Assembly (NCBI RefSeq): GCF_000300335.1
Contig: NZ_AMRM01000013.1
Span: 1-64,000 of the forward strand
Direction: 5' to 3'
From: Nitratireductor pacificus pht-3B
GTDB lineage: Bacteria; Pseudomonadota; Alphaproteobacteria; Rhizobiales; Rhizobiaceae
DNA: 64,000 nucleotides
Made by a program: the position numbers and the translations under genes. The first letter of the stretch is position 1, and the number at the start of each line of letters is the position of its first letter. The notes below the pieces were generated by a model. The model had not been told where the DNA came from and did not search any database. It saw only the letters and a list, made by a program, of their open reading frames with translations. This document shows, in pieces, positions 213 through 29,560 of this stretch.

Positions 213-1618
213 CGCACCGTCTCCACTGTTCCGGTTGCCGTCTCATTCGAACGGACGGGCTGCCATCCAAGCGCCGCTATGGAGCCGGCGAGCACATAGA
301 ACATCAGTCCGAGGTCGTAGACCGTGCCGGAGATCATCGCTTCACACAGGCCGGCAACCAGCCCGGCCTTGGCTGCCCGCGTCACCGCAGTGTCATAGCG
401 TGCCCCGCCGCAGCGCAGGAGAAGGAGAGAACCGACGAACAGCATGAACATCGCCGTCCCGACGATGCCGACATTCGACAGAAGCACCAGCGCGTAGCTC
501 GAGGCGCGCGCGCTGCCGAGCCCCGCGCCCAGCCCCCAGGTGTCCTGGAAGACCTGGAACGCCACCGCATTCCACATGAAGCGCTCGCGGCCCGACTGGC
601 TGTCGAGCTTCGAGAACAGCATCTCGTCGAGGAACGACCAGATGTCCTGGACCAGTCCCGGGGCGGCGACGATGGCAAGGAGACAGAGCAGCGGCGCAAG
701 GACCAGAATGCCGACGAGAAACGCCGGCCGGCCCCGCGGCGCCACGCCCGCCGATGCCGGTACCGAGCGCGCCAGCAGGAAGGCGACGACCGCAGTGAGG
801 CTCACCAGCGCCGTGCTCGACGTGGACAGAAGCAGCGCGACCAGCAACAGCCCGGAGAGCATGCCGGTCACCATTGGACGAACGCGATCGAGCCAGAGGC
901 TGGCGGTGAACGCGAACAGGACGATGGTGTAGCCCGCAAAGGCCGACGCCTCGGGAAACGTCCCGGAGATGCGCTTGAAACCCGCCTTCTCCGACCCGGT
1001 CAACAGCGCATAGTTGGCCGTGCGGATGAAATCGAAGAGATAGGCGGTGCCCGAGTAGTAGGTGACGACATCGAGGACCGCGAAAACCAGATTGAGGCCT
1101 CCGACAATCAGCATCGCATTGACCAGATCGGACGATGAGCCGCCGCGACGCAGATAGGCGAAGGTGAAGGCGAAGCAGAACAACCCACCCAGCGCGTAGA
1201 CCGACTGGGTGATGTTGTTGGTCGAAGAGGACAGGGGAACCAGATCGATGATGCTGCGCCCGACGGAAGAACGCAGGACGATCATGGTTTCCGTTTCCCC
1301 TTCCAGAAGGCGCGGCAGGAAGAACGCCGTCATCACTGCATAGACGGTCAGGAGCAGCAGCCAGAAGCCGGCGGAGGTGCCCGTGACGGATGCCAGGACC
1401 GGCCCTTCGCCATGGGCCATGAACTGGCGCAGGCAATAGAAGGCCAGCAGCAGGCTCGGGACCAGAATGGATGCGCCGCCCAAACCCGGGAGGCTGAGGG
1501 CGGCGGCAGCGCCGAACAATGTCGAGAAGACGATGACATAGAACGACCAGCGAACCGGCGCCAGCAGCGCCACCGTGCCCAGGATCATCGCAACAATGCC
1601 CAGCAACTCGATGCGCAT
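209..1618 (-). CDS. O-antigen ligase/Wzy-type EPS polymerase-like membrane protein
   Basis: 469 residues that are almost entirely hydrophobic, with roughly ten to twelve predicted membrane segments and one large hydrophilic loop in the second half (about residues 325-360), the usual architecture of O-antigen ligase/polymerase (Wzy/WaaL/ExoQ-like) proteins. Such proteins join lipid-linked repeat units on the periplasmic face of the inner membrane. It lies at the edge of an EPS locus with flippase, priming transferase, co-polymerase and export genes, so polymerisation of the EPS repeat unit is the natural role. Sequence conservation in this family is very low, so polymerase and ligase cannot be separated here. 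The start is the ATG at 1618. It is coupled to the downstream pyruvyl-transferase-like gene. Confidence 0.7.
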   Translation of the reverse strand: MRIELLGIVAMILGTVALLAPVRWSFYVIVFSTLFGAAAALSLPGLGGASILVPSLLLAFYCLRQFMAHGEGPVLASVTGTSAGFWLLLLTVYAVMTAFFLPRLLEGETETMIVLRSSVGRSIIDLVPLSSSTNNITQSVYALGGLFCFAFTFAYLRRGGSSSDLVNAMLIVGGLNLVFAVLDVVTYYSGTAYLFDFIRTANYALLTGSEKAGFKRISGTFPEASAFAGYTIVLFAFTASLWLDRVRPMVTGMLSGLLLVALLLSTSSTALVSLTAVVAFLLARSVPASAGVAPRGRPAFLVGILVLAPLLCLLAIVAAPGLVQDIWSFLDEMLFSKLDSQSGRERFMWNAVAFQVFQDTWGLGAGLGSARASSYALVLLSNVGIVGTAMFMLFVGSLLLLRCGGARYDTAVTRAAKAGLVAGLCEAMISGTVYDLGLMFYVLAGSIAALGWQPVRSNETATGTVETVR

Positions 1619-1782
1619 GGTGTTCCAGCGCTCCCCGTCAGCATGTCATGGCATGGCGAAGGCTAGCATGGTCGAGAGGGAGCGTCGTTCCACCCGCATG
1701 TACACCTTAAGGACTATCCGCGGACACTTGGACGAATTCATCGCGCTTAGGGCGCATGATATGGTCGGTTCAGGAGGTGGCA
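1619..1782. promoter_or_regulatory. Divergent intergenic region: polymerase (left) and glucanase (right)
   Basis: 164 bp between two divergently transcribed EPS genes must contain both promoters. I find no convincing -35/-10 pair by eye. The only clear signal is the ribosome binding site AGGAGGT at 1772-1778 serving the TTG start of the glucanase at 1783. Confidence 0.4.
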
Positions 1783-2637
1783 TTGGCCCATAGTCCCGCA
1801 ATCGGCCCTCCGGGGCATTCACGCGCAAGGCGCCGCATCGTGGTCGCGGGCAGCCTCATTGCGGGCATGGTCCTGCTGACCGGGGTGGGGCATCACGCTT
1901 CAGCGGTCGTGCAGCAGGATGAGCTCAACCTCGAACAGATGGCACTTTCCTTCGAAGAGGATTTCGACACGCTCGACGTTTCCGCCTGGGGACCCGGTAC
2001 GCGCTGGATCGCCCATACGCCATGGTCGGGAGATTTCGGCGGCGCGCGCTTCTCCGACCCGCGCGAAGGCTTTCCGTTCAGCATCGAGGACGGGATCCTG
2101 CGCATCGAGGCCAGGCGCGACGATGAGGGAGAATGGCAATCCGGCCTCCTCGCCTCGGTGGATCCGCGCGGCGATGGCTTCGCCCAGCAATACGGCTATT
2201 TCGAAATGCGCGCCCGCCTGCCTGACGGACCGGGCGTCTGGCCGGCCTTCTGGCTGATCGGCAAGGACCGTTCCAAGGCGACCGCCGAGATCGACATCCT
2301 CGAATATTACGGCGACAAGCCGGGCGGTTATTCGTCGGTCGTGCATGTCTGGCACCGCGACGGCCGGCACAGCTCGCAGTACAATCGCAACGAGGTCTTC
2401 GGTCCGGGTGCGGACGCCCCGGGCGCCTTCAACACCTACGGGGTCAGGGTCGACCGCGACTGGATCCGCGTCTATTTCAACCGCCGCTTCGTCTGGAAAA
2501 CCGAGACGCAGCCGGAGCACCGGCAGCCGCTCTACATTCTCCTGAACCTGGCGCTGGTCGATGGCCCGACGAAGGACGCGACCCCGGACCCCTCGCATAT
2601 GTTCGTCGATTACGTGCGCGCCTATCGCCTCGACTGA
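1783..2637 (+). CDS. Secreted or membrane-anchored GH16 endo-beta-glucanase
   Basis: 284 residues. A basic N-terminus followed by one hydrophobic segment (about residues 19-36) indicates a signal peptide or inner-membrane anchor. The glycoside hydrolase family 16 core follows. The catalytic motif is E169-I-D-I-L-E174, the ExDxxE (beta-bulge) form typical of laminarinase-like members; E169 is the expected nucleophile and E174 the acid/base. In rhizobia the related ExoK/ExsH enzymes cut nascent EPS to low molecular weight forms, and the EPS setting suggests the same here. The start was set at TTG 1783 because AGGAGGT lies five bases upstream; the in-frame ATG at 1756 has no such site and would put the Shine-Dalgarno inside the gene. 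Confidence 0.85.
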   Translation: MAHSPAIGPPGHSRARRRIVVAGSLIAGMVLLTGVGHHASAVVQQDELNLEQMALSFEEDFDTLDVSAWGPGTRWIAHTPWSGDFGGARFSDPREGFPFSIEDGILRIEARRDDEGEWQSGLLASVDPRGDGFAQQYGYFEMRARLPDGPGVWPAFWLIGKDRSKATAEIDILEYYGDKPGGYSSVVHVWHRDGRHSSQYNRNEVFGPGADAPGAFNTYGVRVDRDWIRVYFNRRFVWKTETQPEHRQPLYILLNLALVDGPTKDATPDPSHMFVDYVRAYRLD

Positions 2638-2955: not shown

Positions 2956-4923
2956 ATGAACGGCACGCAGCGGCAGTTGGATTTTCCACATGGGCGCCCC
3001 ACGCCCCGCCACTGCGAAGCCGAAGCGCACCCCACAGATCTTCAACCCGCAGTTCCCGGCACCTATGACCGCCAGGCAACGATCCACGGCATCGTGGCGC
3101 AGATCGCGGCCGGCCAGCCAGACGCGGTGGCCCTCCAGTTCGACGACGATCGTCTTACCTATGGCGAACTCGACCGGCAATCCTCGCTTCTGGCGCACGC
3201 GCTGATCCGGCTTGGCGTGGTGAAGGGCGATGTGGTCGGGCTGCTCCTGCCGAGGGCGATCAAGACGCTGATCGCAAAACTGGCGATCCTGAAGGCCGGC
3301 GCGGCTTACGCCCCCTTCGATCCCGCGTATCCGGCAGAGCATCTAGCCTATGTGATCGACGATTGTGCGCCGCGGCTGATCCTGACCGAAGACGGCGAAG
3401 CTGGAACCGTACCGCCATCCGCCCTCGGCGACGCCCGCCAGCTCGATCTCGACGCCGCGCTTGCCGCGCTGCCCGACATGTCTCCACTGCCGCCCGGCAT
3501 CGCGGCCGATGGGGGCGATGCAGCCTATGTCATGTACACCTCTGGTTCGACCGGACGGCCCAAGGGGGTTGTCATCCCGCATCGCGGCGTCGTGCGGCTC
3601 GTCCGGGCGCAGAACTACATCCGGTTTCGTCCGCAGGACGTGATTCTGCACACCGCGACGATCTCCTTCGACGCGGCCACCTTCGAAATCTGGGGCGCGC
3701 TTCTCAACGGCTGCCGGCTCGTCGGGATCGGCGACCGGACGCTGTCGCTGCCGCGCCTCGCGCAGGTGATCACCGATCATGCGGTCTCGGTCATGCTGCT
3801 CACCACCGGGCTGTTTCATCTCCTCGTCGATCATCAGGGTCCCCGCATGCACACGCTGCGGCACGTGCTGTTCGGCGGCGAGGTAGCGTCCGCCGAACAT
3901 GCCCGCCGCTTTCTCCGGCGACACCCGAACTGCGTCCTGACCAATGCCTACGGCCCGACCGAGGTGACGGTGATGGCCTCGGCCTTCGAGGTGCCCTCGG
4001 ATTTCGCCGGCGCGGACATGCCGATCGGACATTCGATCGCTCATAGCGGCGTTCACATCCTCGACGACCGGCTCGCCGAACTGCCGCCGGGCAGCGAGGG
4101 GCAACTCGCCGTTTCCGGCGACGGCCTCGCCATCGGCTACATGAACCGGCCGGACCTGACCGCCGAGCGCTTCGTGACGGTCGGCACCCGGGATGGAAAC
4201 GCCGTGCGCTGCTACCTGACCGGCGACATGGCCGTGATGGGGGAAGACGGCCTGCTGCACTTCCGGGGACGTCGCGACCGCCAGATCAAGATCGACGGAA
4301 AGCGGATCGAGCTGGATGAGATCGAAGCCGCGTTGCGGCGCGACGAGCACCTGTCCGACGCGGTCGTGCAGTGCCACCAGGCGGGCAACGCCAAGCGCAT
4401 CGTCGCCTTCCTGAAGCCGCGCAAGCCTGTGCCGGACGGCGCGCTACGCTTCGCCGCCGCAGTCCTGGAGCGTCTGCGGTCGGCTCTTCCGGCCCACATG
4501 ATTCCGAGCAAGGCCATCGTTCTCGACGCCTTTCCCATGAACCCCGCCGGCAAGGTGGACCGTTCCCGCCTGACCCTGCCTGCCGCGCCGGCGGCGCCGC
4601 CGGCACACGACGGGGTGCAGGGAACCCGGGCGGTCATCGCCCGGCTTTGGGAAGAGGTTCTCGGCACGCGGGACATCGGACCGGAGCAGAATTTCTTCGA
4701 CCTCGGAGGCACGTCGATGCAGCTGATGCGCGTTCACGCGGCGCTGGAGCAGGCGCTCGGCCGGACGATCGACGTGGTCGCCGTCTTCGAGCATCCCAAC
4801 ATCGCCAGCCTGGCGCGGTTTCTCGACGCTGCGCCCGACGCAACGGCCGCCGCCCCGTCCATCGGCATGCGCGCGGCGTTGCGGAAGAAGGGGATGAGCC
4901 AGTTCCGCCGGGGGTCGCGATGA
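2956..4923 (+). CDS. NRPS loading protein, adenylation-PCP (A1-T1)
   Basis: 655 residues: an adenylation domain (about 35-540) and a peptidyl carrier domain (about 550-630). Core motifs are clear: YTSGSTGRPKG from Y194, NAYGPTE, YLTGD and the A10 lysine in NPAGKVDR. The carrier serine is S587 in GGTSMQL. Read by the PheA alignment, the specificity residues are D-A-F-L-L-G-A-V-M-K. The Asp at position 235 implies an alpha-amino acid, and the lining is hydrophobic, but I do not recognise the code as a known one. There is no condensation domain upstream, so this protein starts the chain and hands its aminoacyl group to the KS of the next protein. Its stop overlaps the next start (ATGA), a sign of coupled translation. 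The carrier must be activated by the Sfp-type transferase at 17326-18138. Confidence 0.9.
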   Translation: MNGTQRQLDFPHGRPTPRHCEAEAHPTDLQPAVPGTYDRQATIHGIVAQIAAGQPDAVALQFDDDRLTYGELDRQSSLLAHALIRLGVVKGDVVGLLLPRAIKTLIAKLAILKAGAAYAPFDPAYPAEHLAYVIDDCAPRLILTEDGEAGTVPPSALGDARQLDLDAALAALPDMSPLPPGIAADGGDAAYVMYTSGSTGRPKGVVIPHRGVVRLVRAQNYIRFRPQDVILHTATISFDAATFEIWGALLNGCRLVGIGDRTLSLPRLAQVITDHAVSVMLLTTGLFHLLVDHQGPRMHTLRHVLFGGEVASAEHARRFLRRHPNCVLTNAYGPTEVTVMASAFEVPSDFAGADMPIGHSIAHSGVHILDDRLAELPPGSEGQLAVSGDGLAIGYMNRPDLTAERFVTVGTRDGNAVRCYLTGDMAVMGEDGLLHFRGRRDRQIKIDGKRIELDEIEAALRRDEHLSDAVVQCHQAGNAKRIVAFLKPRKPVPDGALRFAAAVLERLRSALPAHMIPSKAIVLDAFPMNPAGKVDRSRLTLPAAPAAPPAHDGVQGTRAVIARLWEEVLGTRDIGPEQNFFDLGGTSMQLMRVHAALEQALGRTIDVVAVFEHPNIASLARFLDAAPDATAAAPSIGMRAALRKKGMSQFRRGSR

Positions 4924-7900
4924 ACGAGAGAACCGTACATGACAACCAGCCCCCTCCCCCGGACGAGGGGATCGGCGACATCGCGATCATCGGCATGACG
5001 GGCCGGTTCCCCGGCGCCGCCTCCGTCGATGCGCTCTGGGAGATGATCCGCGAGGGGCGGCACGCCTTCCGCACCTTCAGCCCCGACGAGATCGAAGACG
5101 CCTTCGACGACGCGGTGCGCGCCGCGCCGGACTATGTGGCGGCACGCCCCTATCTCGACGACCCCGGCCTGTTCGATGCCGAGTTCTTCGGCATGTATCC
5201 CCGCGAGGCGGCGCTGGTCGATCCGCAGTTCCGGCTGTTCCTGGAAATCTGCTGGGAGGCGCTGGAAGGCGCCGGCTGCGATCCCTTCAACGCCCGCGAA
5301 TCCATCGGCGTCTTCGCCGGCTCGGCGATGAGCACCTACCTGATCAACAACGTGCTCTCCGACCGGGACACGGCGGAGCAGTTCACGTCGAACTATCAGG
5401 TCGGCATGTTCCCGGAGCTGATCGGTGCGATCAACGATACGCTGGCGACCCGCGTCGCCTACAAGCTGAACCTGCGCGGCCCGGCCTTCACCGTCCAGTC
5501 GGCCTGCTCCACCTCGGCGCTGGCGGTCACGCAGGCCTGCCAGGCCCTGCTGACCTATGGCTGCGACATGGCGCTCGCCGGCGGCGTTTCGATCACCTTC
5601 CCGCAGAAGCGCGGCTATCTCTACCAGGAAGGCGGCATGGTCTCGCCGGACGGCTTCTGCCGGCCCTTCGACGCCGATGCCGCCGGCACGGTGTTCGGCA
5701 GCGGCGCGGGCGTCGTCCTGCTCAAGCGCCTCGAGGAGGCGCTTCGCGACGGCGATCCCATCCACGCCGTGATCCGCGGCTACGGCGTCAACAATGACGG
5801 TGCCGACAAGGTCGGCTACACCGCGCCGAGCGTGTCCGGCCAGGCGGACGCCATCGCCGCCGCCCATGCCAGCGCCGGCATCGCGCCGGAGACCATCGGC
5901 TATGTAGAATGCCACGGCACGGCGACGCCGCTCGGCGACCCGATCGAGTTCAGCGGCCTGACCCGGGCCTTCGGCACGGTTGCGGGCGAAGGTTCCTGCG
6001 CACTCGGTTCGGTCAAGGGGAATCTGGGCCATCTGGATGCCGCGGCGGGGGTCGCAGGACTGATCAAGGCCGCGCTGGTGCTGCGCCACCGGCAGATCCC
6101 TCCGGTCGCAAACTTCGTTGCGCCGAACCCGCATATGGAGCTCGCCGGGAGCCCGTTCTCCATTCCCGTCCAGCTCCGCGACTGGGCCGCGCAAGACACG
6201 CCGCGCCGCGCCGGGGTCAGCTCGTTCGGCGTGGGCGGAACGAATGTGCATCTGGTTCTGGAGGAAGCCCCGCCGGCAGCCGCACTCCCCGGGGACGAAG
6301 GCGACACCCTGCGCATCCTGCCGCTCTCCGCGCGCAACGAGACCGCCCTTGCGGCCATGCGCGAAAACCTTGCCGCCGCATTGCGCGGCAGCGACCTGCC
6401 GCTCGCCGCCGTAGCGCACACGCTGCAGAACGGCCGGCACGATTTCCGCGAACGCTGCACAGTCGTCGCCAGAAGCCGGGAGGAGGCGATTACACGGCTG
6501 GCCGAGGAACGCCAGATTTCCGGCCGGGCGGAGGAGACCGCGCCGCCGGTCATCTTCCTGTTTCCGGGCCAGGGCGCACAATATCCCGGCATGGGCGCCG
6601 CACTCCACGCGACGGAGCCGGAATTCGCCCGCTGGATCGACCGGGGCGCCGAGATCGCCGAACCGCTGATCGATGCCGACCTGCGAAGATTCATCTGCAA
6701 CGCGGGCGAGGCCGACGAGAAACTTGCCGAGGCGCTGCGCGATACGAAGATCGCCCAGCCCGCGCTGTTCCTGGTCGAATATGCGACGGCAAAGCTGTGG
6801 ATGAGCCGGGGCATCGTGCCGGCGGCGATGGTCGGCCACAGCGTCGGCGAGTTCGTCGCCGCCACGCTCGCCGGGGTCATGTCCTTCGAGGACGGACTAA
6901 AGCTCGTCGCCGCGCGCGGCAGGCTGATGCAGGAGCAGCCGCGGGGAGCAATGGTCTCGGTGCGCGCCGAGGCGGAGACGGTCGCGCCTCACCTGAGCGA
7001 CGGCGTCGAGATCGCCGCCGTCAACGCCCCGAAGCTCTCCGTCGTTTCCGGCCCGTTCGATGCCATGGACGCCACCTGCGCCGCGCTGGATGCCGCCGGC
7101 ATCGCCTATAGCCGCCTCCACACCTCGCACGCCTTCCACTCGGCGATGATGGACGAGGCGGCCCGGCTTCTTGAGGAAGAGACGGCGCGCGTCTCCTACC
7201 ATCCGGCCACCATCCCCTATGTTTCCTGCGTCACGGGCGAGTGGCAGACGGACGATCAGGGAGCCTCCCCCGCCTATTGGGCGCGCCATTGCCGCGATGC
7301 CGTGCGGTTTGCCGACGGGGTCGGCACGGCGTGCGAAGGCCGCAGGCCGGTTCTTCTGGAAACGGGTCCCGGACGCACTCTTTCCGTGTTCAGCGCACAG
7401 ACGCTCAAGCGTGACGCGGTGGCGGCAATCATCCAGTCGCTGCCGGAGCACGACCGCGCGCAGCAGGCGCTGGAAACCTTCGCGGAGGCCCATGCCCGGC
7501 TATGGATCGCCGGGTGCAAACCGGACTGGCCGGCGCTGCCCGCGCAAGCCCGACGCACCGTCCATCTGCCGACCTATCCCTTCCAGCGGCAGTTGTACTG
7601 GATCGACGCGCCGAAGCCGCTTCGCCAGGCCGGCACTGTGATCGCCGCCCCCGCTCAACCGACGAACCCGACAAACGGAGCTGCCACGATGACAGCCGCA
7701 CCTGTTCCACCCGTTGCCGACCGGCCCGCCCGGCTGGAGGCCGCGCTGACTGTCCTCCTCGCGGATCTCTCCGGAGAGGAACTGCCGGACGATGCGGGCG
7801 GCGCGACGTTCCTCGAACTGGGCTTCGATTCCCTGTTCATCGGCCAGTTCGCCCAGAAGGTGGAGAAGGAATACAGGGTCAGGCTCTCCTTCCGGGAGCT

Positions 7901-10900
7901 TCTGGGCAACATCCCGACCCTTCACGCTCTTGCGCGGCATCTGGATGCCGAGCTGCCGGCCGATGCCATGCAGCCGGTTCCGGAGACCCCGGCGATACCG
8001 GTCCCCCCCACGCCGGCTGCCGCGCCTGCTGCGCCATCGACAATGACGAACGGACAGATCACAACGCCTGTCGGGCTCGAGGCACTGTTCCAGTCGCAAT
8101 TGCAGATGGCGCAGCAGCTCTTTACCCAGCAGATGCAGGCGATCCAGTCGCTCGGCGGCGGCTCCGCCGCTCCGACGCCGGCAATGCCTGCCGCTCCGGC
8201 CCCGGCTGCATCGGCTCCCTCCACCGGCGGCGAGGAGAAGGAGATCGGCGGCGAACGCATCCGCCTCTACAAGCCTGGCACCCGGCGCGCTGACCAGGAG
8301 ATGTCGCCGCAGAAAAGCGCCTTCATCGCCGATCTGACCGCCCGCTACGCGGCGCGGAATGCCAAGTCCAAGGCATTCACCGAGGCGCACCGGCCCCGCC
8401 TCGCCGATCCGCGCGCGGCGTCTGGCTTCCGCTCAGAATGGAAAGAGATGGTCTTCCCGGTCGTCTCCGACCGCTCGAAAGGCGCTCGCATCTGGGACAT
8501 CGACGGCAATGAATACATCGACCTCGTCAACGGGATGGGCCAGACGGCCTTCGGCCATGCGCCGGATTTCGTGGTCGAGGCCATCATCGCGCAGGCCAAT
8601 AGCGGCTTCGCCATCGGGCCGCAGACGCCGCTCGCCGGCGAGGTGGCGGATCTCGTGAGCGAATTGACGGGCCACGAGCGCGTCACCTTCTGCAACACCG
8701 GTTCTGAAGCGGTGATGGCGGCCATGCGGGTCGCTCGAACCGTGACCGGGCGCGAACGCGTCGTCGTCTTCGGCAACGACTATCACGGCCAGTTCGACGA
8801 GGTTCTGGTGAAGGGCCGCAGCCGCTCGGGCGTCCATGCGGCGCTGCCGATCGCCGCCGGCATCCCGCCCGGTTCGGTCTCCAACATGACCGTGCTCGGT
8901 TACGGCACGCCCGAGAGCCTCGACTGGATCCGCGCCAATGCCGACGACATCGCCGCGGTCATCATCGAACCGGTGCAGAGCCGGCATCCCGAACTGCGCC
9001 CCGAGGATTTCGTCCGCAAACTGCGCGCCATCGCCACGCAGAACGCCTTCGCGCTGATCTTCGACGAGGTGGTTACCGGCTTCCGCGTCCACCCGGGCGG
9101 CATGCAGGCGGTCTGGGGCATTCGCGGCGATCTCGCGACCTACGGCAAGGTGCTGGGCGGTGGCATGCCGATCGGCGTGCTCGCCGGCGACAGCCGCTTC
9201 ATGGACGCGCTGGATGGGGGAAGCTGGGCCTATGGCGACGATAGCGTGCCGATGGTCGCGCCGACCTTCTTCGCCGGCACCTTCGTGCGCCATCCGATCG
9301 TGCTGGCGGCCGCCAAGGCCGTTCTGGAGCATATCAAGGGTGAAGGACAGGCGCTGTACGACCGCGTCGCGGCCCGCACGGAGCAACTCGTCGGCACCCT
9401 GAACGACGATCTGGCGCGGCGCGGCATCGCAAGCCCGATCCATGGTTACAAGAGCTGGTTTGTCACGGATTTCGGCAGCGCCGATCCACTCGGCGCGCTG
9501 TTCTATCCCCATGCGCGCCTGCAGGGGCTGCATGTGCAGGACGGCTATCCCTGCTTCCTCACGACGCAGCATTCCGAGGAGGATTTCGCACGCATCGCCG
9601 AAGTCTTCGCCAACAGCCTCGACGCGTTGCAGGAAGCCGGCATTCTGGCGCCAGCGCTTCCCGTTGCGGCCACGACCGTGCCTGCCAAGACGCAGGAGCC
9701 GGCACCAGCAGCCGCCCCGGCGTCCGCGCCGCTGACGGAGGCGCAGACGGAAATCTGGCTCGCGGCGCAGGCCGGCGACGAGGCATCCTGCGCCTTCAAC
9801 GAATCCTTCAACCTGGCGCTCGACGGGCCGTTCGACGAAGCCGTGTTCCGGCGCGCCTTCGCCCTGGTGATCAGCCGCCACGACGCTCTCCATATCCGTT
9901 TCTCGCGCGCCGGGGACCAGTTCGAGATCATCCCGGATTTCGCCGTCGAGCTGCCGCTGCGCGAGCTTGCGGAGGATGCCGGGCTCGCACAGATCACCGA
10001 CGCCGAAGCCCGCACGCCGTTTGACCTCGTCAACGGGCCGCTGGTGCGGGCGCAACTCGTCCGCCTCGCCGCCGAACGGCACGTGCTCGTCTTCACTGCG
10101 CACCATATCGTCTGCGACGGATGGTCGGTGAACGTGCTGGTCGAGGACCTGGCGAAAGCCTATTCCCTGCTGCTGAAGGGCGAGGAACCCGACCTTCCGC
10201 CGGCGCTCTCCTTCGCCGCCTACGCGCAGGCCCGCGCCGCGACGACGGAAGCGGCCGGCGAAACGGAAACCTTCTGGCTAGGCCAGTTCAACGCCGTGCC
10301 CGAGCTCCCCGACCTGCCGACCGACAGGCCGAGGCCCGAAAGGCGCAGCTTCGCCGGTGGCACGGTCACCGCATCGATCGATCAGGACATCTGCAAGCGC
10401 CTCAAGAAGGCAGGCGCGAAGGGCGGGGCGACCCTGTTCTCGACCCTGCTCGCCGCGCTGCAGGTGATGGTCGCCCGCCTGTCGGCCAGCAACGACATCG
10501 TCATCGCCGTGCCATCGGCCGGGCAAAGCCTGCTCGACGGCGGGGCCCTCGTCGGTCATTGCGTCAATCTCCTGCCGCTGCGCCAGGGGGTCGACGAAGA
10601 CCGGACCTTCGAAGCCCATCTGCGCGACACGCAGCAGCTTGTCCTCCAGGCGTTCGAGCATCAGGACTTCACCTACGGCACGCTGGTGCGGAAGCTCGGC
10701 GTCAAGCGCGATCCCAGCCGCCTTCCCCTCACGGAAATCCAGTTCAACCTCGAGCGGATGGCGAAGGCGATCGACTTCGGAGGCCTCGAAGCGCGTGTCA
10801 CGCCCAACCCGAAGGCATTCGCCAATTTCGACATGTTCCTCAACATGATCGAGAGCACGGACGGCATCCGCATCGACGTCGACTACAATGGCGACGTCTT

Positions 10901-12899
10901 CGAGCGCCAGACCATCGAACGCTGGCTCGGGCATTTCAGGACGCTGATCACGGCCATCGCCGATCATATGACCGCAAGGATCGCCACGCTGCCGCTGCTT
11001 TCGCCGGAACAGACGGACTGGCTCGTCCACGGGGTCAATGCGACCGACGCGGCCTTCGACCAGGAGCGCTTCGTCTACGACCTGTTCGCCGAACGCGCCG
11101 CTGAGACACCCGACGCCATCGCCGCCCAGCATGGCGACGTGTCGATCACCTATGCCGAACTCGACGCGCGCAGCTGGCAGCTTGCCCGCCTGATCCATGA
11201 GAAGGTGTTCATCCCCGGCCGCCGCGTGGCGGTGGCGCTCGACCGCTCGATCGACATGCTGGTAACGCTGCTGGCGATCATGAAATCCGGGCACATCTAC
11301 GTGCCGCTCGATCCCGCCCATCCGGAAGCCCGCCTGCGCCAGACCATGGAAACGGCCCGCATCTCCGCCCTGGTCTGCGCCAGCGATGCGCTGGCAGCGC
11401 TCGCCGGAGCGGACGCGGTCACGGTCCGCCTCGACCGCGAGGAAGCGGAGATCGCCGCGCAGAGCACGACGCCACTCGAGCGGCGCACCCGCCACGCGAC
11501 ATCGGCCGCCTACATCATCTTCACCTCCGGTTCGACGGGCGTGCCGAAGGGCGTGGAGGTGCCCCACCGCGCGCTGATGAACTTCCTGACCTCGATGGCG
11601 CGGGAACCGGGCTTCGGCGCCACGGACACCTTGCTCGCCGTCACGACCATCTCGTTCGACATTGCGGGGCTGGAACTCTATCTGCCGCTGATCACGGGCG
11701 GCAAGGTGGTGATCGCCGACAGCGCCCAGGTGCGCGACGGCTTCGCGCTGATCGATCTCCTGAAGCGGAGCAAGGCGACCGTCCTGCAGGCCACGCCGAC
11801 GCTCTGGCAGGTTCTGGTGGAAGCCGGTCTCGAAAAGCAGCCCGGACTGAAGATGCTGTGCGGCGGCGAGCCGCTGCCCGGCGAACTCGCCAGAACGCTG
11901 ACCGGACTGGGCGGCGAACTCTGGAATATGTACGGGCCGACCGAGACCACCATCTGGTCTTCGGTGGCGCGCATCGACGATCCGCAAGCGCCGATCACCA
12001 TCGGCCATCCGATCGCCAACACGCAGCTGTTCATCCTCGACCGACAGGAGCGGATCGCTCCCGTCGGCGTCATCGGCGAATTGAACATCGGCGGCGAAGG
12101 GCTGGCTGTCGGCTACTTCGAGAACCGCGAGCAGACGAAGGCGGCCTTCCGCAATGTCAACATCGCGGGCGTACCGCAGCGGCTCTACCGAACAGGCGAT
12201 GTCGGACGGCGCATGCCGGACGGCTCGCTGCAGCTTTTCGGGCGCCGCGACAACCAGATCAAGCTGCGCGGTTTCCGCATCGAGCTGGGCGACATCGCAA
12301 CCGTCGTCGACAGGACCGAGGGCGTGCGTCACTGCGCTGTGGTGGCCGCGAGCAACCGGAATGGCGACCGCCAGCTCGTCTGCCATTTCGTGCCCGAAAC
12401 GGACGGAGCGGCTCCTTCCGTCGAGCAGTTGGCGGCCCACGCCAAGGCGCATCTGCCGGCACATATGATCCCCGGTTGCTGGGTCGAAACGCAGGAACTG
12501 CCGCAGACGGCGAACGGCAAGCTCGATCGCAAGGCGCTCGAAGCGCTTGGCGTGCCGACGCGCCAGGCAGCGCCCATCCGGCTGAAGCCGCGCACGCCGA
12601 TGGAAGAGAAGCTGTCGCAGATCTGGTGCGACGTGCTGCAGATGGGTGAGATCGGCGTCGATGAGAACCTCTATGCGCTCGGCGCGGATTCGCTCAGCAT
12701 ATTCCGCATCGCGGCGCGGATGATGGATGCCGGCGTGCCGCTGGAGGCGAAGCACCTGCTGCGTCATCCGACCATCGGGGAACTGGCGGTCTGCGCCGAG
12801 GCCCAAAGTGCCGCGCCGGCCAATGACACCGCATCGCATGTGCCGTCGTTGAAGGACTTCCGCAACGGCGCACGGCGTGTCGCGAGGGTGGGAACATGA
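4920..12899 (+). CDS. Hybrid PKS-NRPS: KS-AT-ACP-aminotransferase-C-A(Gly)-PCP
   Basis: 2659 residues from the ATG overlapping the previous stop. KS (about 19-445) has catalytic C196, H332 and H371. AT (about 545-840) has S641 in GHSVGEF and the HAFH motif at 737-740 that predicts malonyl-CoA. ACP serine is S971. A Pro/Ala-rich linker leads to a class-III PLP aminotransferase (about 1110-1560, lysine K1410 in YGKVLGGGMP). Then come a condensation domain with intact HHIVCDG at 1728-1734, an adenylation domain (about 2055-2545) and PCP with S2591. No KR, DH, ER or methyltransferase is present, so the beta-ketone left by KS is the aminotransferase substrate and becomes a beta-amine. The A-domain code reads DILQLGMIWK, a signature I know for glycine. 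The KS-AT-ACP-AMT-C-A-PCP order matches the mid part of mycosubtilin/iturin synthetases (MycA/ItuA) and, apart from a missing methyltransferase, microcystin McyE. Confidence 0.93.
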   Translation: MNERTVHDNQPPPPDEGIGDIAIIGMTGRFPGAASVDALWEMIREGRHAFRTFSPDEIEDAFDDAVRAAPDYVAARPYLDDPGLFDAEFFGMYPREAALVDPQFRLFLEICWEALEGAGCDPFNARESIGVFAGSAMSTYLINNVLSDRDTAEQFTSNYQVGMFPELIGAINDTLATRVAYKLNLRGPAFTVQSACSTSALAVTQACQALLTYGCDMALAGGVSITFPQKRGYLYQEGGMVSPDGFCRPFDADAAGTVFGSGAGVVLLKRLEEALRDGDPIHAVIRGYGVNNDGADKVGYTAPSVSGQADAIAAAHASAGIAPETIGYVECHGTATPLGDPIEFSGLTRAFGTVAGEGSCALGSVKGNLGHLDAAAGVAGLIKAALVLRHRQIPPVANFVAPNPHMELAGSPFSIPVQLRDWAAQDTPRRAGVSSFGVGGTNVHLVLEEAPPAAALPGDEGDTLRILPLSARNETALAAMRENLAAALRGSDLPLAAVAHTLQNGRHDFRERCTVVARSREEAITRLAEERQISGRAEETAPPVIFLFPGQGAQYPGMGAALHATEPEFARWIDRGAEIAEPLIDADLRRFICNAGEADEKLAEALRDTKIAQPALFLVEYATAKLWMSRGIVPAAMVGHSVGEFVAATLAGVMSFEDGLKLVAARGRLMQEQPRGAMVSVRAEAETVAPHLSDGVEIAAVNAPKLSVVSGPFDAMDATCAALDAAGIAYSRLHTSHAFHSAMMDEAARLLEEETARVSYHPATIPYVSCVTGEWQTDDQGASPAYWARHCRDAVRFADGVGTACEGRRPVLLETGPGRTLSVFSAQTLKRDAVAAIIQSLPEHDRAQQALETFAEAHARLWIAGCKPDWPALPAQARRTVHLPTYPFQRQLYWIDAPKPLRQAGTVIAAPAQPTNPTNGAATMTAAPVPPVADRPARLEAALTVLLADLSGEELPDDAGGATFLELGFDSLFIGQFAQKVEKEYRVRLSFRELLGNIPTLHALARHLDAELPADAMQPVPETPAIPVPPTPAAAPAAPSTMTNGQITTPVGLEALFQSQLQMAQQLFTQQMQAIQSLGGGSAAPTPAMPAAPAPAASAPSTGGEEKEIGGERIRLYKPGTRRADQEMSPQKSAFIADLTARYAARNAKSKAFTEAHRPRLADPRAASGFRSEWKEMVFPVVSDRSKGARIWDIDGNEYIDLVNGMGQTAFGHAPDFVVEAIIAQANSGFAIGPQTPLAGEVADLVSELTGHERVTFCNTGSEAVMAAMRVARTVTGRERVVVFGNDYHGQFDEVLVKGRSRSGVHAALPIAAGIPPGSVSNMTVLGYGTPESLDWIRANADDIAAVIIEPVQSRHPELRPEDFVRKLRAIATQNAFALIFDEVVTGFRVHPGGMQAVWGIRGDLATYGKVLGGGMPIGVLAGDSRFMDALDGGSWAYGDDSVPMVAPTFFAGTFVRHPIVLAAAKAVLEHIKGEGQALYDRVAARTEQLVGTLNDDLARRGIASPIHGYKSWFVTDFGSADPLGALFYPHARLQGLHVQDGYPCFLTTQHSEEDFARIAEVFANSLDALQEAGILAPALPVAATTVPAKTQEPAPAAAPASAPLTEAQTEIWLAAQAGDEASCAFNESFNLALDGPFDEAVFRRAFALVISRHDALHIRFSRAGDQFEIIPDFAVELPLRELAEDAGLAQITDAEARTPFDLVNGPLVRAQLVRLAAERHVLVFTAHHIVCDGWSVNVLVEDLAKAYSLLLKGEEPDLPPALSFAAYAQARAATTEAAGETETFWLGQFNAVPELPDLPTDRPRPERRSFAGGTVTASIDQDICKRLKKAGAKGGATLFSTLLAALQVMVARLSASNDIVIAVPSAGQSLLDGGALVGHCVNLLPLRQGVDEDRTFEAHLRDTQQLVLQAFEHQDFTYGTLVRKLGVKRDPSRLPLTEIQFNLERMAKAIDFGGLEARVTPNPKAFANFDMFLNMIESTDGIRIDVDYNGDVFERQTIERWLGHFRTLITAIADHMTARIATLPLLSPEQTDWLVHGVNATDAAFDQERFVYDLFAERAAETPDAIAAQHGDVSITYAELDARSWQLARLIHEKVFIPGRRVAVALDRSIDMLVTLLAIMKSGHIYVPLDPAHPEARLRQTMETARISALVCASDALAALAGADAVTVRLDREEAEIAAQSTTPLERRTRHATSAAYIIFTSGSTGVPKGVEVPHRALMNFLTSMAREPGFGATDTLLAVTTISFDIAGLELYLPLITGGKVVIADSAQVRDGFALIDLLKRSKATVLQATPTLWQVLVEAGLEKQPGLKMLCGGEPLPGELARTLTGLGGELWNMYGPTETTIWSSVARIDDPQAPITIGHPIANTQLFILDRQERIAPVGVIGELNIGGEGLAVGYFENREQTKAAFRNVNIAGVPQRLYRTGDVGRRMPDGSLQLFGRRDNQIKLRGFRIELGDIATVVDRTEGVRHCAVVAASNRNGDRQLVCHFVPETDGAAPSVEQLAAHAKAHLPAHMIPGCWVETQELPQTANGKLDRKALEALGVPTRQAAPIRLKPRTPMEEKLSQIWCDVLQMGEIGVDENLYALGADSLSIFRIAARMMDAGVPLEAKHLLRHPTIGELAVCAEAQSAAPANDTASHVPSLKDFRNGARRVARVGT

Positions 12900-15718
12900 G
12901 CGAAGCCGATCAACGCCCCCGCCCACAGGCCGCGCGCGACGTGGTGGCGACCTTTCCCTGCACCCAGACGCAGTTGCGGTGCTGGTTCCTCGACCAGTTG
13001 AACCCGGGCAATCCGGCGCTCAACGTGGCGGTGCGCTGGGAGATCCGCGGCGCCTTCAAGACGGCGAGCATCGAGGCTGCCTTCCGGCAGGTGATCGCGC
13101 GGCACGAAATCCTGCGGACCTTCTTCAGCGAGACCGACGGCCAGCCGCAGCAGCAGGTGGTCGAGGCCGTCGACTTCAAGATGCCGGTGATCGATCTGCG
13201 GCATGTGCCGGAAGACCAGCGCGACGCGCGGATCCAGTCGATCAGCAAGGAAACGGCCGCCGCCCCGTTCGATCTCGCAGAGCCCGGCCTGTTCCGTGTC
13301 ACCTTTCTGATGGTCGAGAACCAGCGGGGCTTCATCCTGATCACCGCCCATCAATCCTGCTTCGACGGCTGGTCGATCCGGGTGCTGGGCCGGGAGGTCG
13401 GCGAGATCGCCGCCGCGATCGACGGGCAGCGCACACCGGGGCTGGCGGAGCTGGCACTGCAATATGGCGATTTCGCGCTCTGGCAGGATGCCTATCGCAA
13501 CAGCTACGGTTTCGAGACGGAGAAAGCCTATTGGCGGGCGCAGCTCGCCGGAGCGCCCTATTTCGAGGTCGAGCCGGACCGCCCGCGCGGCCGGACCAAG
13601 ACGAGCCATGGCGAGATCCTGTCCGCCGTGATGCCGCTCTCATTCAGCGAGCGCATTGACGCGGCGGCGCGCGCGCATCAGGTCTCGCTCTTCAGCTATG
13701 GCGCGGCGGTCATCAGCGCCGCCCTGCATCGCTATTGCGCGCGCCGCGAAGTGCTGTTCGGCACGCAGATCGCCGGCCGCGAGGATGTCGACCTGGAGAG
13801 CCTGATCGGCGTGTTCATCAACAATCTGGTCCTCCGGTTCGACTTTCCCGAGAGCCTGACCTTCACCGAGCATCTGCGCCGGGTGAGTGCGACGGTCGCC
13901 GACGCGCTCAACCATCAGAGAATGCCGTTCAACAATCTGGTGGAACTGGTCAACCCGGCCCGCGACCCGTCGCGCAATCCTCTCGTCTCGGTGAATTTCA
14001 ACCAGCAGAAGGCCTTCCTGGAGAACGCGCATTACGGCGGCTTCGAGCTGATCAGCGCGCCGTCGCAATCGCCCGGCGTGATCTATGATCTCAACTTCAT
14101 CATGATCGGGCGGCCGGACGGCTGGCGCATGTCTGTCGAGTACAACACCGACCTGTTCGACGCCCGCACGGCGCAGGAATTGCTGGACCTCTGGCGTTCG
14201 GCCTATGCCTTCGCGCTCGACAATCCCGACGCGCCGCTCGCATCCATGCAGGGGCCGGTCCGGACGCCGGCGGCACCCGCGACCGGTGGTCCTTCTACCT
14301 CCCGACTGGAAGCCCTGCTCGCCGCGCACAAGGACGTGGCGGAGGTGGCGCTGCAACTGCCCGCCGCCGGCGGAAATCCCTACGCCTTCGTCACCCCGGC
14401 GCCGATCCATGCCGGCCCGCTCGAAACGCTGCCCATGCGGCTGACCTCCTATCTGTCCGGCCATCTCTCGCCGGCCGACATGCCCTCCGGCATCAGCGTG
14501 ATGCTGTCCCTGCCGACCGCCGGACCCGCGTCGGCCCCGGCGGCGCTGCCCGCCCCGCGTCCTGCCGAAGCGAAGACGGACCTGCCGCACTCCAGCCCCG
14601 AGCGGGAAAGCCAGCTCGGCCGCATCTGGGCGGATGTGCTCGGCGTGGACACCGTCCATTCGGATGATGATTTCTTTGCCCTCGGCGGGCATTCGCTGCT
14701 TGCCCTGCGCATGCTCTCAGCGGTCAGGGCGACCTTCGGCGTGAAGCCGGAGCTGGCATTGCTGTTCAAGGCGCCGACGCTTGCCGGGTTCGCGCGCGCC
14801 CTGTTCGGGGAAGCCCCGCAGCCTCCGGAGGAAACACCTTTCCGGACGGCCGCGTCCGGGGCTGTCACCGGCCCGGTGGTTCCGGCCGTTCCGGAAGCAC
14901 CCCAACCGACATGGGACGTCTCCGTCTACCAGGAGGGGGACGGCAGCTGTGCCCTCTACACGCTGAACCATCCGTTCCTCTACTACCGTCTGGCGCGGCT
15001 CCTTCCGCCGGAGGTTTCGGCGGTCAATCTCAGCATGTTCAACGCCAGCATCGATGCGGCCCGCCGGCAGCTCTCGCTCGAGCAGATCGCCGGCGAGGCC
15101 ATCTCTGCGATGAAGCTCGGGCCGGCACCCCAGTCGATCGCCCTGATCGGGCTTTGCGTCAACGGCGTTCTGGCGATGGAGATGACCCGGCAGCTGCATT
15201 GCCTGGGACACCGCATCCAGTTCGTGGCGCTGATCGACAGCTGGGCGCCCGGCTATGTGGGCTCGCAGTCGCGCCTCACCCGATTGCGCTGGACGATGGA
15301 GAAGCGCGTCAAGCGTCTCGCCTACTTCACCGGCAAGCTGCTCAGGGGACGGATGCGGCTCATCACCTATCTGAAGGAGTTCAACGTCACGCTGAAACTG
15401 GTCGAGCGCTTCAGGGGCGGCAATGCCATGGATGCGGAAGAACAGGCCAATGCCGATGTGACGGAGTTCCTGGTGGCGGCCGCGCGCCGCTACCGGCCGC
15501 GACCGATCAGCGCCGAGACCGTGCTCTTCTTCCGCAGCCAGGCAAACCACCGGCGCGCCAATGACCTCCTGTTCGGCTGGCGGGGGTTCGTGCCGGAGGA
15601 CGCGCCAGTGTTCGACGTTGCGGGCTGGCACGAGGATTCCCTCACCCAGGCGGGGATCGAACACCTGTCCGGCGTCCTGTCGGACCGGCTTCACGCGGGA
15701 GCGCTCCTTGACCAGTAA
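12896..15718 (+). CDS. Terminal NRPS protein: C, relic adenylation lid, PCP, Cys-type thioesterase
   Basis: 940 residues, start ATG overlapping the previous stop. The condensation domain (about 18-450) carries H152-Q153-S-C-F-D-G where the family has HHxxxDG, so the second, catalytic histidine is glutamine. No adenylation core follows. Residues about 469-548 instead align with an A-domain C-terminal lid subdomain (LEALLAAHKDVAEVALQL...), ending in SLPTAGPASAPAAL where the A10 lysine of NGKVDR should be. PCP follows with S600 in GGHSLLAL. The thioesterase (about 690-935) has G-L-C-V-N-G at the nucleophile elbow, making C754 the nucleophile in place of serine, with a likely Asp in LIDSW and a His in GWHED. 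Cys-type thioesterases are known from obafluorin synthetase, where the product is a beta-lactone. Release to water, an intramolecular amine or a sugar hydroxyl are all possible here. Confidence 0.9.
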   Translation: MSEADQRPRPQAARDVVATFPCTQTQLRCWFLDQLNPGNPALNVAVRWEIRGAFKTASIEAAFRQVIARHEILRTFFSETDGQPQQQVVEAVDFKMPVIDLRHVPEDQRDARIQSISKETAAAPFDLAEPGLFRVTFLMVENQRGFILITAHQSCFDGWSIRVLGREVGEIAAAIDGQRTPGLAELALQYGDFALWQDAYRNSYGFETEKAYWRAQLAGAPYFEVEPDRPRGRTKTSHGEILSAVMPLSFSERIDAAARAHQVSLFSYGAAVISAALHRYCARREVLFGTQIAGREDVDLESLIGVFINNLVLRFDFPESLTFTEHLRRVSATVADALNHQRMPFNNLVELVNPARDPSRNPLVSVNFNQQKAFLENAHYGGFELISAPSQSPGVIYDLNFIMIGRPDGWRMSVEYNTDLFDARTAQELLDLWRSAYAFALDNPDAPLASMQGPVRTPAAPATGGPSTSRLEALLAAHKDVAEVALQLPAAGGNPYAFVTPAPIHAGPLETLPMRLTSYLSGHLSPADMPSGISVMLSLPTAGPASAPAALPAPRPAEAKTDLPHSSPERESQLGRIWADVLGVDTVHSDDDFFALGGHSLLALRMLSAVRATFGVKPELALLFKAPTLAGFARALFGEAPQPPEETPFRTAASGAVTGPVVPAVPEAPQPTWDVSVYQEGDGSCALYTLNHPFLYYRLARLLPPEVSAVNLSMFNASIDAARRQLSLEQIAGEAISAMKLGPAPQSIALIGLCVNGVLAMEMTRQLHCLGHRIQFVALIDSWAPGYVGSQSRLTRLRWTMEKRVKRLAYFTGKLLRGRMRLITYLKEFNVTLKLVERFRGGNAMDAEEQANADVTEFLVAAARRYRPRPISAETVLFFRSQANHRRANDLLFGWRGFVPEDAPVFDVAGWHEDSLTQAGIEHLSGVLSDRLHAGALLDQ

Positions 15719-17312
15719 ACGGCACGCGCATCGGCCCGGCGCCAAGCTCTTGAGGGTCGGCATCCTCACCGGCCTCGGCCGGCGCTTCGAAAACTGGGAG
15801 CTGCAGCTTTTCGAGCGGCTCCTGGCCGACCAGCGGTTTGAGATGGCGGGTTTTCTCGTTCACCCGCATCCCTTTGACGGCCAGCCATCCGGTCTCGCCG
15901 CCGGCTGGATCGCGCGTCTCGATCGCGCCCTGTTCGCGCGGCAGGCCCCCTATCCCGCGCCGCGCTTTGCGCGGTCCCGGAAGGCACTCCCCGTTCTCCA
16001 CCTCGACGGCGCGTCGCAGCCGGTGGCCGAACTCGGCCTCGATCTGGTGCTGCGCCACGTGCCGGCTCGCCCGCCGCATGATCTGGTCGCCGGCCTGCCG
16101 TTCGGCGTCTGGACGCTCAGCCATGTCGAAGCGCAGTCGGCGCATGCCAACTGGACAGGGATCGCTGACACCCTGGCGAAGGCCGCCGGCACCCGTCTCG
16201 GCCTGACGGTCGAGCGCGGAGATGGAAAGCGCGCGGTGCAGATCGCCGAGGCCGCGTTCAACACCAAGTTCAGCGCCGCGCGCAACACCGCCTTCATCCA
16301 GGAGAAGTCGGTTCTTCTGGCCATGCGTGAACTCGGCCGGCTGGCCGACACGCGCAAGCTTGCTGCGCCAGCGGCAAAGGCGCAGTCTGCCCGCCCGGCC
16401 ACCCCGCCGAGCCTCCGCGAGGCAGCGGCCTATGCGGGGCATCTGCTCCACGGCTCGACCATGCTAGCCGCCAAGGTCCTGCGCCGGCGCACCCACAGCG
16501 AGGCTGCCGTATGGACCCTCTACAGCGGACGCGGGGCGATCGACGATTTTGATCCGCGCAAGGCCGTGGAAATCCCGCCCTCACAGACATCCATCAAGGC
16601 CGATCCGTTCCTCTTCAGGCACCAGGGCGAAACCTATGTTTTCTATGAGAATTACGGCGTCGGCGACAGCAAGGCGCATATCGCGGTCGGACGCCTGACC
16701 CGTGACCGCCTGGAGCCGATCGGCATCGCGCTCGGCGGCGACAGTCATCTCTCATTCCCGTTCGTCTTCAGCCATGACGGGGCGATCTTCATGATGCCGG
16801 AGACACATCAGAAGAAGCGCGTGGAAATCTGGCGCGCGGTCAACTTTCCGCTTGTCTGGGAACCCTATTCAAGCGCGTTCGAGGGATGGTCGGTTGCCGA
16901 CAGCACGCTGTTTCGCCACAAGGGCGCTTGGTGGCTGTTCTCGAACCTGTCCGAACATCACGCGTTCGAGGACCATTGCTCAGCACTCTACGCCTTCGAG
17001 GTGGACGGGCCGAAGCTGTCGTCGATCGTCGCGCACCGGCGCAATCCCGTCGTGATCGGCAGCGCAACGGCGCGCAATGCCGGGCGGGTCTTCTCCCGCC
17101 ACAAGCGGCTGTTCCGCCCCTCCCAGAACAACGCCTACGGCATCTACGGCTACGGTCTCAACATCATGGAGATCGAGCAGCTCGACCGCGAAACCTATCG
17201 CGAGACCTGCGTGCGGCGGATCGTGCCGGATTTCAAACCCGGCCTCGTCGGCTGCCATCATTTCGATGCGAGCGGCTCGCGCTACATCCTCGACGCCCGC
17301 CTGAATGCATGA
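15708..17312 (+). CDS. GINT1-N-like beta-propeller protein, putative glycosyl or acyl transfer
   Basis: 534 residues from a TTG at 15708 that overlaps the thioesterase stop by 11 nt and has GGGAG six bases upstream. The N-terminal 220 residues (VGILTGLGRRFENWELQLF onward) look like the Rossmann-type half of formyl- or glycosyltransferase-like proteins. The C-terminal part (about 260-534) has repeated blades with ADPFLFRHQGETYVFYE, SFPFVF and DSTLFRHKGAWWLFSN, which I recognise as the five-bladed GH43/GH32-like propeller found in the N-terminal domain of glucosamine inositolphosphorylceramide transferase 1. Translational coupling to the NRPS genes suggests it acts on the peptide or on the sugar it joins. 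The reaction is unknown. TTG at 15750 is an alternative start. Confidence 0.65.
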   Translation: MTSKRHAHRPGAKLLRVGILTGLGRRFENWELQLFERLLADQRFEMAGFLVHPHPFDGQPSGLAAGWIARLDRALFARQAPYPAPRFARSRKALPVLHLDGASQPVAELGLDLVLRHVPARPPHDLVAGLPFGVWTLSHVEAQSAHANWTGIADTLAKAAGTRLGLTVERGDGKRAVQIAEAAFNTKFSAARNTAFIQEKSVLLAMRELGRLADTRKLAAPAAKAQSARPATPPSLREAAAYAGHLLHGSTMLAAKVLRRRTHSEAAVWTLYSGRGAIDDFDPRKAVEIPPSQTSIKADPFLFRHQGETYVFYENYGVGDSKAHIAVGRLTRDRLEPIGIALGGDSHLSFPFVFSHDGAIFMMPETHQKKRVEIWRAVNFPLVWEPYSSAFEGWSVADSTLFRHKGAWWLFSNLSEHHAFEDHCSALYAFEVDGPKLSSIVAHRRNPVVIGSATARNAGRVFSRHKRLFRPSQNNAYGIYGYGLNIMEIEQLDRETYRETCVRRIVPDFKPGLVGCHHFDASGSRYILDARLNA

Positions 17313-23696: not shown

Positions 23697-23948
23697 CAGA
23701 CGGCCGCCCCGCAGGCCCGCCCGCACGCGCTATTCACGGCAGTGGGACGATCGGCTAGGGTTCTGCCGTGGTCCTCGGTGATTCGCCGCCGGTTTCGGTA
23801 AAATCGCTGAAAATCTGGCCGCATCGTGTGATTGCCCAATTGTGGTTGCAGCTTTGCGTTACCTGCGTATGGACTGACGAGCCGACAGAGCGCCCATGGG
23901 GGCATGTGCGATGTGCGGTTTGCCCCGGATCCTTCGGACAGCGAGCAA

Positions 23949-29535: not shown

Positions 29536-29560
29536 GTTTCGTTCCGTTCCCTTTGTCGCT

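Follow-up and report, generated by a model that had tools for sequence, protein, structure and literature searches.

The described systems closest to the locus reported here are hybrids of a polyketide synthase (PKS) and a non-ribosomal peptide synthetase (NRPS) that carry an aminotransferase domain (AMT). In the mycosubtilin protein MycA, a ketosynthase (KS), an acyltransferase (AT), an acyl carrier protein (ACP) and the AMT are reportedly followed by a condensation (C), an adenylation (A) and a peptidyl carrier protein (PCP) domain, and the mycosubtilin and iturin lines are said to begin with a fatty acid. A fatty-acid start is also described for the flavipulchrins (PMC12819058). Lines of the Athmu type (pahayokolide, floridanemamide), as presented in a preprint (PMC13252402), load their starter through an A domain, use malonyl extension and hold an aminotransferase domain; the substrate proposed for this A domain is an alpha-keto acid, which a ketoreductase (KR) then reduces. 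Here we analyse a 64,000-nt stretch of Nitratireductor pacificus pht-3B (positions 1 to 64,000 of contig NZ_AMRM01000013.1, hereafter the window), in which a PKS-NRPS hybrid encoded by three open reading frames (ORF1 to ORF3) lies inside an exopolysaccharide (EPS) locus.

This assembly line resembles MycA in its AMT, which is nearest in sequence, and in the placing of KS-AT-ACP-AMT before C-A-PCP; it differs from the mycosubtilin and iturin lines in its amino-acid-type A starter, its shortness and its position in an EPS locus. With the Athmu-type lines it shares A-domain starter loading, malonyl extension and an aminotransferase domain, but ORF1 is an A-PCP protein without KR and its starter code has Asp as for amino acids. 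A first-pass annotation, made from the sequence of the window alone, had stated that known AMT systems start from fatty or phenylpropanoid acids; this fits the mycosubtilin type but would not hold for the Athmu type, for which the preprint proposes an alpha-keto acid (PMC13252402). Rhizobial Wzx/Wzy EPS loci are like the window in having an initiating transferase, glycosyltransferases (GTs), a flippase, Wzc, Wza, a GH16 glycanase and, putatively, a polymerase, and unlike it in that the window has its own PKS-NRPS and phosphopantetheinyl transferase. Searches of the open full-text literature (PMC) brought up nothing recognisable on this locus or on a PKS-NRPS decorating a polysaccharide, which does not prove that no such paper exists.

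We propose, as a tentative reading to which we give a little less than an even chance, that the product of this PKS-NRPS is a small cationic acyl group destined for a Wzx/Wzy exopolysaccharide. As judged from sequence, the locus is real, conserved and under purifying selection, and its hybrid PKS-NRPS, for which an amino acid seems to be the primer, is tied to polysaccharide biosynthesis. The pairing with sugar-polymer genes recurs in many bacteria, which suggests that the small product decorates the polymer; such decoration appears to be its most likely use.

Architecture of the assembly line

Pfam matches in ORF2 cover ketoacyl synthase N and C, an acyltransferase, two PP-binding domains, a class III aminotransferase, Condensation, and AMP-binding with AMP-binding_C, and the order KS-AT-ACP-AMT-C-A-PCP stands within one protein, as in AMT hybrids of the MycA kind. 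With A-PCP in ORF1 and C-PCP-thioesterase (TE) in ORF3, Pfam reproduces the order first read, and the ATGA-type overlaps noted with it are present at both junctions (4920-4923, from the bases themselves, and 12896-12899, from the ORF coordinates). Pfam reported no KR, dehydratase (DH), enoylreductase (ER) or epimerisation (E) domain in the three proteins; the malonyl motif of the AT, the active sites of the KS and the carriers, and the AMT lysine were assessed visually on the translation against known motifs. The AMT reading was upheld as well, the nearest solved relative being the AMT of mycosubtilin MycA (6kfm, 7.5e-123) and the next family following at 9.8e-53. The ORF1 A domain scores 389.6 bits with TIGR01733, above the cut-off of 317.4, as an amino-acid-type domain and not a fatty-acyl or aryl starter ligase.

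Comparisons were made with 79 distinct related loci (designated by L numbers), taken from the best 80 of at least 585 matches, so that the counts describe close relatives; some of their contigs run out inside the flank. Whole genomes (G numbers) were available as a set of 39, from 40 of the 79 loci with L039 left out. The closest named relative among the matches listed is Nitratireductor soli (85% in the best ORF2 segment). The C domains of ORF2 and ORF3 (C2 and C3 below) are the sole C domains found in the 4.47-Mb genome, and 30 of the 39 related genomes likewise have two or fewer (E 1e-30).

Chain start and predicted product

Starter A domain and KS share one open frame in 23 of the 79 related loci, and the A-PCP protein ORF1 therefore feeds the KS, as expected of the chain starter that the first-pass annotation had seen in this A domain. 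Asp at the start of an A-domain code is typical of amino-acid substrates, and it is the first code residue in 62 of 62 A domains of the starter group, in agreement with the amino-acid Asp initially noted in the window. Our own grouping of these 62 codes gives 17 Val-like, 12 Pro-like and 4 Thr-like domains; the group includes a few stand-alone A domains that are perhaps no starters (for example in L073 and L079). Relatives' codes match those printed in PMC9113097 for Val (DAFWLGGTFK), Pro (DVQYVAHVVK) and Thr (DFWNVGMVHK) exactly or with small changes. The window and L003 carry DAFLLGAVMK, and five congeners carry DAFLLGAVIK (two), DAFLLGVCMK (two) and DAFLFGAVIK (one). Because DAFLLGAVMK had no match in the open full-text literature, we call its substrate only hydrophobic; the starter A domain looks amino-acid specific.

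The assignment of glycine to the second A domain was confirmed, its code DILQLGMIWK being printed as a Gly code (PMC12283262), and of the 85 A domains downstream of a C2-type domain, 64 have a Gly-like DILQ start. Taken together, the starter code, the Gly code and the MycA-like AMT lead to the prediction of a 3,4-diamino acyl unit on glycine. Of this product, as first put forward, the A starter, the AMT and the Gly code are supported, while the product itself stays a prediction.

The third protein is a reduced module

The first-pass annotation had also read the third protein as C-PCP-TE; the domain order holds, but ORF3 is no ordinary module. Its C domain reads HQSCFDG instead of HHxxxDG, Pfam gives no AMP-binding match, and its TE reads GLCVNG instead of GxSxG, with Asp and His present; the PCP serine motif GGHSL is intact in the window and in the Rhizobiaceae. 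Cys occupies the nucleophile position in 36 of 37 aligned TEs, the window included, and Ser in one (the His is unaligned in L021, L025 and L062); L070 has a second Ser-type TE. The nearest solved TE, that of Acinetobacter baumannii AB3403 (4zxh), also aligns a Cys at the nucleophile, in a weak match (E 0.0035, about 90 residues aligned).

Relatives show third modules in graded states. Intact terminal modules, C(HH)-A-PCP-TE with intact A motifs and the codes DILQLGLIWK and DILFMGVIYK, occur in Marinobacterium (L027) and Solimonas (L096). In Nevskia (L010, L013) and a gammaproteobacterium (L012) the C domain has HQ, and the A domain, its motifs ruined, lacks the A10 lysine. An A_sub remnant alone is present in L005, L008, L021, L023, L024, L025, L031 and L039 (E 3e-11 to 7e-6; that of L021 is also seen by Pfam), and is undetectable in window ORF3 (E 0.53) and most other Rhizobiaceae. 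Third proteins of the Reyranella type consist of C(HA or HS) and TE, with the PCP missing by alignment (and by Pfam for L036 and L041), and the PCP is likewise missing in those of Paraburkholderia (L035, HS) and Boseaceae (L018, which keeps HH). The series suggests a stepwise decay of the third module from an intact C-A-PCP-TE, the order of the steps being our reading of it. The second His was lost in 29 of the 36 single-C third proteins without an A domain (49 third-protein frames minus 13, namely that of the window, three whose A domain is dead, two contig-cut or short, four with two C domains and three with an A domain), and four of six plasmid loci read HQ.

This decay series among the relatives sits beside better conservation of C3 than of C2 in three comparisons: identity to L003, L086 and L088 is 89, 81 and 80% for C3 versus 84, 73 and 76% for C2. 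The ratio of non-synonymous to synonymous substitution rates (dN/dS, estimated by the simple NG86 method, dS reaching 2) is 0.13-0.16 for C3, which is under purifying selection and not decaying. The lost A domain, HQxxxDG, the Cys TE and the forms of the relatives' third modules rule out ORF3 as an ordinary third module. Unlike the intact terminal modules, it apparently adds no residue, and we put at evens the reading that it is a release module of this kind. A non-elongating KS passes its chain on without extension; by analogy we would guess that the chain moves to PCP3 without formation of a peptide bond.

Two variants of the third protein were also seen. L026, L053, L070 and L073 have two consecutive C-type domains ahead of PCP-TE, and the TEs of L026 and L070 keep the usual Ser. 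In Solimonas, the intact C-A-PCP-TE (L096, G035:C16), which looks like the third module, and a PPTase-like match (L097) adjoin Wza, Wzc and a GT2, and the PKS core is on another contig.

Recurrence with exopolysaccharide genes in other genomes

Profiles of seven EPS families, seeded with proteins of the window, L057 and L063, were searched in flanks of about 10 kb around the 79 loci: at least two families were present at 41 loci and at least one at 50. The EPS setting, which had been called unusual for such a cluster, is thus common among these relatives. Of the 39 whole genomes, 19 have a Wza (Poly_export) gene no more than 35 kb from the core, versus 1.8 expected (P 6e-16), the 35-kb threshold having been picked after the distances were known and the random expectation taking genomes as independent and their sizes as rounded. 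After removal of the rhizobial genomes the count is 10 of 29 versus 1.39 expected (P 4e-7), and the linkage spans several classes and phyla, including Acidobacteria and Gammaproteobacteria. At 20 kb the count is 10 of 39 versus 1.04 expected; at 10 kb it is 2 of 39 versus 0.52, which is not significant (P 0.1). As a control we used 18 other hand-picked C-domain clusters of the same genomes, leaving out the C domains near the core in G023 and G045; the core is near Wza more often than these when all genomes are counted (19/39 versus 3/18, one-sided Fisher p 0.02).

Within the genus, ORF3 is present in nine of ten genomes, N. pacificus counted, and the stretch from the polymerase to the GT4 is collinear in five of five congeners examined (out of the eight others with ORF3). 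The exception is the TIGR04325 gene, which the window and L003 have but which was not detected in these five. In one congener (L092, G008) the KS and ORF4 each appear split across two frames. ORF3 also matches 19 plasmid records, and EPS genes stand alongside in all six examined (Rhizobium, Ensifer, Sinorhizobium, Rhodobacter, Jannaschia and Loktanella). In Rhizobium and Sinorhizobium the locus is on large plasmids or megaplasmids, and two of the 19 records are predicted to be conjugative. The association reaches the Bacteroidota: in Parapedobacter, a line of two proteins, A-KS-AT-AMT and C-A-PCP-TE, has five GT2s, a flippase and a GMC enzyme in its vicinity (ten proteins scanned), and Pedobacter L037 has GMC, DegT, GT2 and a weak TIGR04325 match. 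Co-occurrence with EPS genes in several genera had been set beforehand as the test of a link, and it is seen in the flanks of the 79 loci, in the congeners and on the plasmids.

Proposed route and use of the product

The chemistry that we infer would begin with A1 loading a hydrophobic amino acid onto PCP1. The KS would condense this starter with malonyl-ACP to a gamma-amino beta-ketone, the AMT would convert the ketone into an amine to give a 3,4-diamino acyl chain, and C2 would couple that chain to glycine on PCP2. We hold this first part, from loading through extension and amination to glycine coupling, to be probable. The C domain of ORF3, without its usual His, and the Cys thioesterase would then take the chain and release or transfer it with no residue added. 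Lastly, the chain would be attached to the sugar repeat unit, at an amine or a hydroxyl, and leave the cell with the glycan via Wzx, a step for which the chances seem to us not quite balanced; in the Rhizobiaceae the acceptor would perhaps be an amino sugar made by the adjoining GMC oxidase and DegT aminotransferase.

A broader reading, which we regard as rather doubtful, would place the locus in a widespread class of glycan-dedicated, amino-acid-primed PKS-NRPS, in which a repurposed HQxxxDG C domain, serving merely to relay the chain, and a Cys TE transfer 3,4-diamino acyl-glycine to the sugar repeat unit to give cationic or zwitterionic polysaccharides in several phyla. If it were true, modular assembly lines would supply building blocks for extracellular polymers, beyond free natural products. 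Polysaccharides would then bear vicinal amines, which would probably alter their charge, metal binding and adhesion, and plasmid-bearing rhizobia would be among the hosts. It would also mean an NRPS release module seemingly stripped of elongation stepwise, and a route to beta,gamma-diamino acids.

Several observations weigh against decoration of a glycan. At 29 of the 79 loci no EPS family lies in the flanks. Reyranella-type loci (L015, L032, L036, L038, L040, L041) hold the core and the short C-TE protein with 0 of 7 families nearby, so that their product may be used otherwise, and in the L036 genome about 336 kb of a single long scaffold separate the core from the closest Wza. Among nine Bacteroidota loci, three have at least two EPS families, two have one and four have none. 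ORF4, GMC and DegT are not universal, accessory genes varying by lineage, and there is therefore no amino-sugar acceptor common to all loci. The AMT tree (quick method, unrooted, 74 relatives) requires at least 13 changes of EPS state; the association has therefore been gained or lost repeatedly, and the loci are not independent rows. Three of the 18 control clusters are themselves near Wza (G031, G035, G036; one is the Solimonas module), and without the rhizobial genomes the core (10/29) does not differ significantly from them (p 0.16), which lowers the probability of a dedicated glycan line. Of the 36 single-C proteins without an A domain, 7 keep the second His of C3, as do two of the six plasmid loci; the Rhodobacter plasmid locus includes a DMT transporter, the window's starter code has no match in the open literature, and no transferase for attaching the product was identified. 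The Reyranella-type loci, the 29 bare flanks and the control would suit a free secreted small molecule (a signal, metal ligand or antibiotic) that is employed alongside the matrix without being attached to it, the linkage being one of co-regulation or shared transfer; a TE can simply hydrolyse or cyclise, and a vicinal diamine could, on general chemistry, bind metals. Against such a molecule stand a Wza linkage that is roughly tenfold the random expectation and extends over several classes and phyla, the Solimonas release-like module that lies beside Wza though the core is elsewhere, and the identified genes of the EPS stretch, none of which is a dedicated small-molecule exporter. We consider it unlikely, if the most serious of the alternatives.

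The remaining alternatives bear on the chain or on the origin of the locus. Loading of PCP3 in trans by A1 or A2 would add a further residue and yield a tripeptide-like chain, as the kept GGHSL motif, the intact third A domains of Marinobacterium and Solimonas and the seven proteins with HHxxxDG would allow; with the second His lost in the other 29, no PCP in the Reyranella-type C-TE proteins and a straight C-A-PCP-TE in Parapedobacter, we find this improbable. An alpha-keto or hydroxy acid starter, giving a 3-amino-4-hydroxy or 4-oxo unit, would parallel the substrate proposed for the Athmu-type A domain (PMC13252402, preprint) and would be compatible with a starter code that has no counterpart in the open literature; the Asp in all 62 codes, the relatives' match to Val, Pro and Thr codes and the loading protein without KR make it more improbable still. 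A recent insertion of the NRPS genes into the EPS locus, with no functional link, had been named at the outset as the finding that would speak against the association. The family distribution is indeed sporadic: of 151 genomes, five have the AMT (three belong to the same genus, one to another genus at 71%, and one has a distant match at 45% in a 523-aa frame). In the AMT tree, classes and phyla are intermingled, a sign of horizontal transfer. Yet the collinearity in the congeners contradicts it, ORF3 is nearly constant in the genus, the same association recurs on plasmids of six genera and dN/dS is below 0.41 in every gene or domain compared; we reject it as very improbable.

The surrounding polysaccharide locus

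The region from about 209 to 32502 reads as a Wzx/Wzy-type EPS locus (Table 1), the initiating transferase, flippase, Wzc and Wza that such a locus depends on all being present. Family matches thus bear out the claim of EPS genes on both flanks; for the left-hand membrane protein, which has no Pfam or NCBIfam match, the role of Wzy polymerase is a guess.

Table 1. Predicted features of the PKS-NRPS and EPS locus, with positions in the window
Feature	Position	Strand	Basis
Membrane protein at EPS polymerase position (Wzy-like)	209..1618	-	hydrophobic; conserved place beside NRPS in Rhizobiaceae
GH16 endoglycanase, ExoK/EglC-like	1756..2637	+	Pfam Glyco_hydro_16 4.4e-12; NCBIfam EglC 3.4e-35, under cut-off
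ORF1, A-PCP loading protein	2956..4923	+	Pfam AMP-binding, AMP-binding_C, PP-binding; code DAFLLGAVMK
ORF2, KS-AT-ACP-AMT-C-A-PCP	4920..12899	+	Pfam; second A code DILQLGMIWK (Gly)
AMT, class III beta-aminotransferase domain	8295..9665 (query range)	+	Pfam; closest solved, MycA AMT
ORF3, putative release protein, C(HQSCFDG)-[lost A]-PCP-TE(GLCVNG)	12896..15718	+	Pfam Condensation, PP-binding, Thioesterase; motifs
C3, condensation domain without second His of HHxxxDG	12950..14251	+	profile search, motif alignment, dN/dS
TE with Cys at nucleophile position	14873..15715	+	alignment
ORF4, N-terminal domain without family, and GINT1_N	15708..17312 (start approximate)	+	Pfam PF24793 3.1e-36; 15-sequence alignment
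4'-Phosphopantetheinyl transferase (PPTase)	17326..18138	-	Pfam ACPS 1.4e-18
DegT/DnrJ/EryC1 sugar aminotransferase	18128..19471	-	Pfam 2.8e-78
GMC oxidoreductase	19694..21397	+	best matches, all weak: sugar dehydrogenases, pyranose oxidases
TIGR04325-family methyltransferase (true start probably inside)	21379..22476	-	NCBIfam 2.8e-54, above cut-off
Wzx-type flippase	22185..23726	-	Pfam Polysacc_synt_3 1.8e-23
WbaP-type initiating sugar transferase	24113..24790	-	Pfam Bac_transf 8.4e-62
GT4 glycosyltransferase	24961..26271	-	family search
GT2 glycosyltransferase	26280..27218	-	family search
Wzc-type chain-length regulator/kinase	27178..29715	-	family search
Wza-type export protein (Poly_export, SLBB)	29561..30937	-	family search
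GT4 glycosyltransferase, right end of stretch conserved in congeners	31306..32502	+	family search, synteny

The strand of the neighbouring genes was chosen by conservation: the opposite-strand ORFs at 17305-18228, 17948-19453, 21430-22260 and 22341-23801 have no Pfam match, and the conserved ORFs on the other strand were preferred. The N-terminal half of ORF4 is a conserved domain of about 260 residues. A formyltransferase-like nature of this half gained no support: Pfam gave nothing at E 0.1, it is outside the genome's three PF00551 matches, and hhalign, a weak test here, also found nothing. At L063:20927-23554, GINT1_N is fused to a GT2 in an 876-aa frame adjoining the PKS-NRPS core, which may hint at the role of ORF4. 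Outside the locus, at 34515-42072, the window holds panB, panC, a GntR/aminotransferase regulator and an RND transporter.

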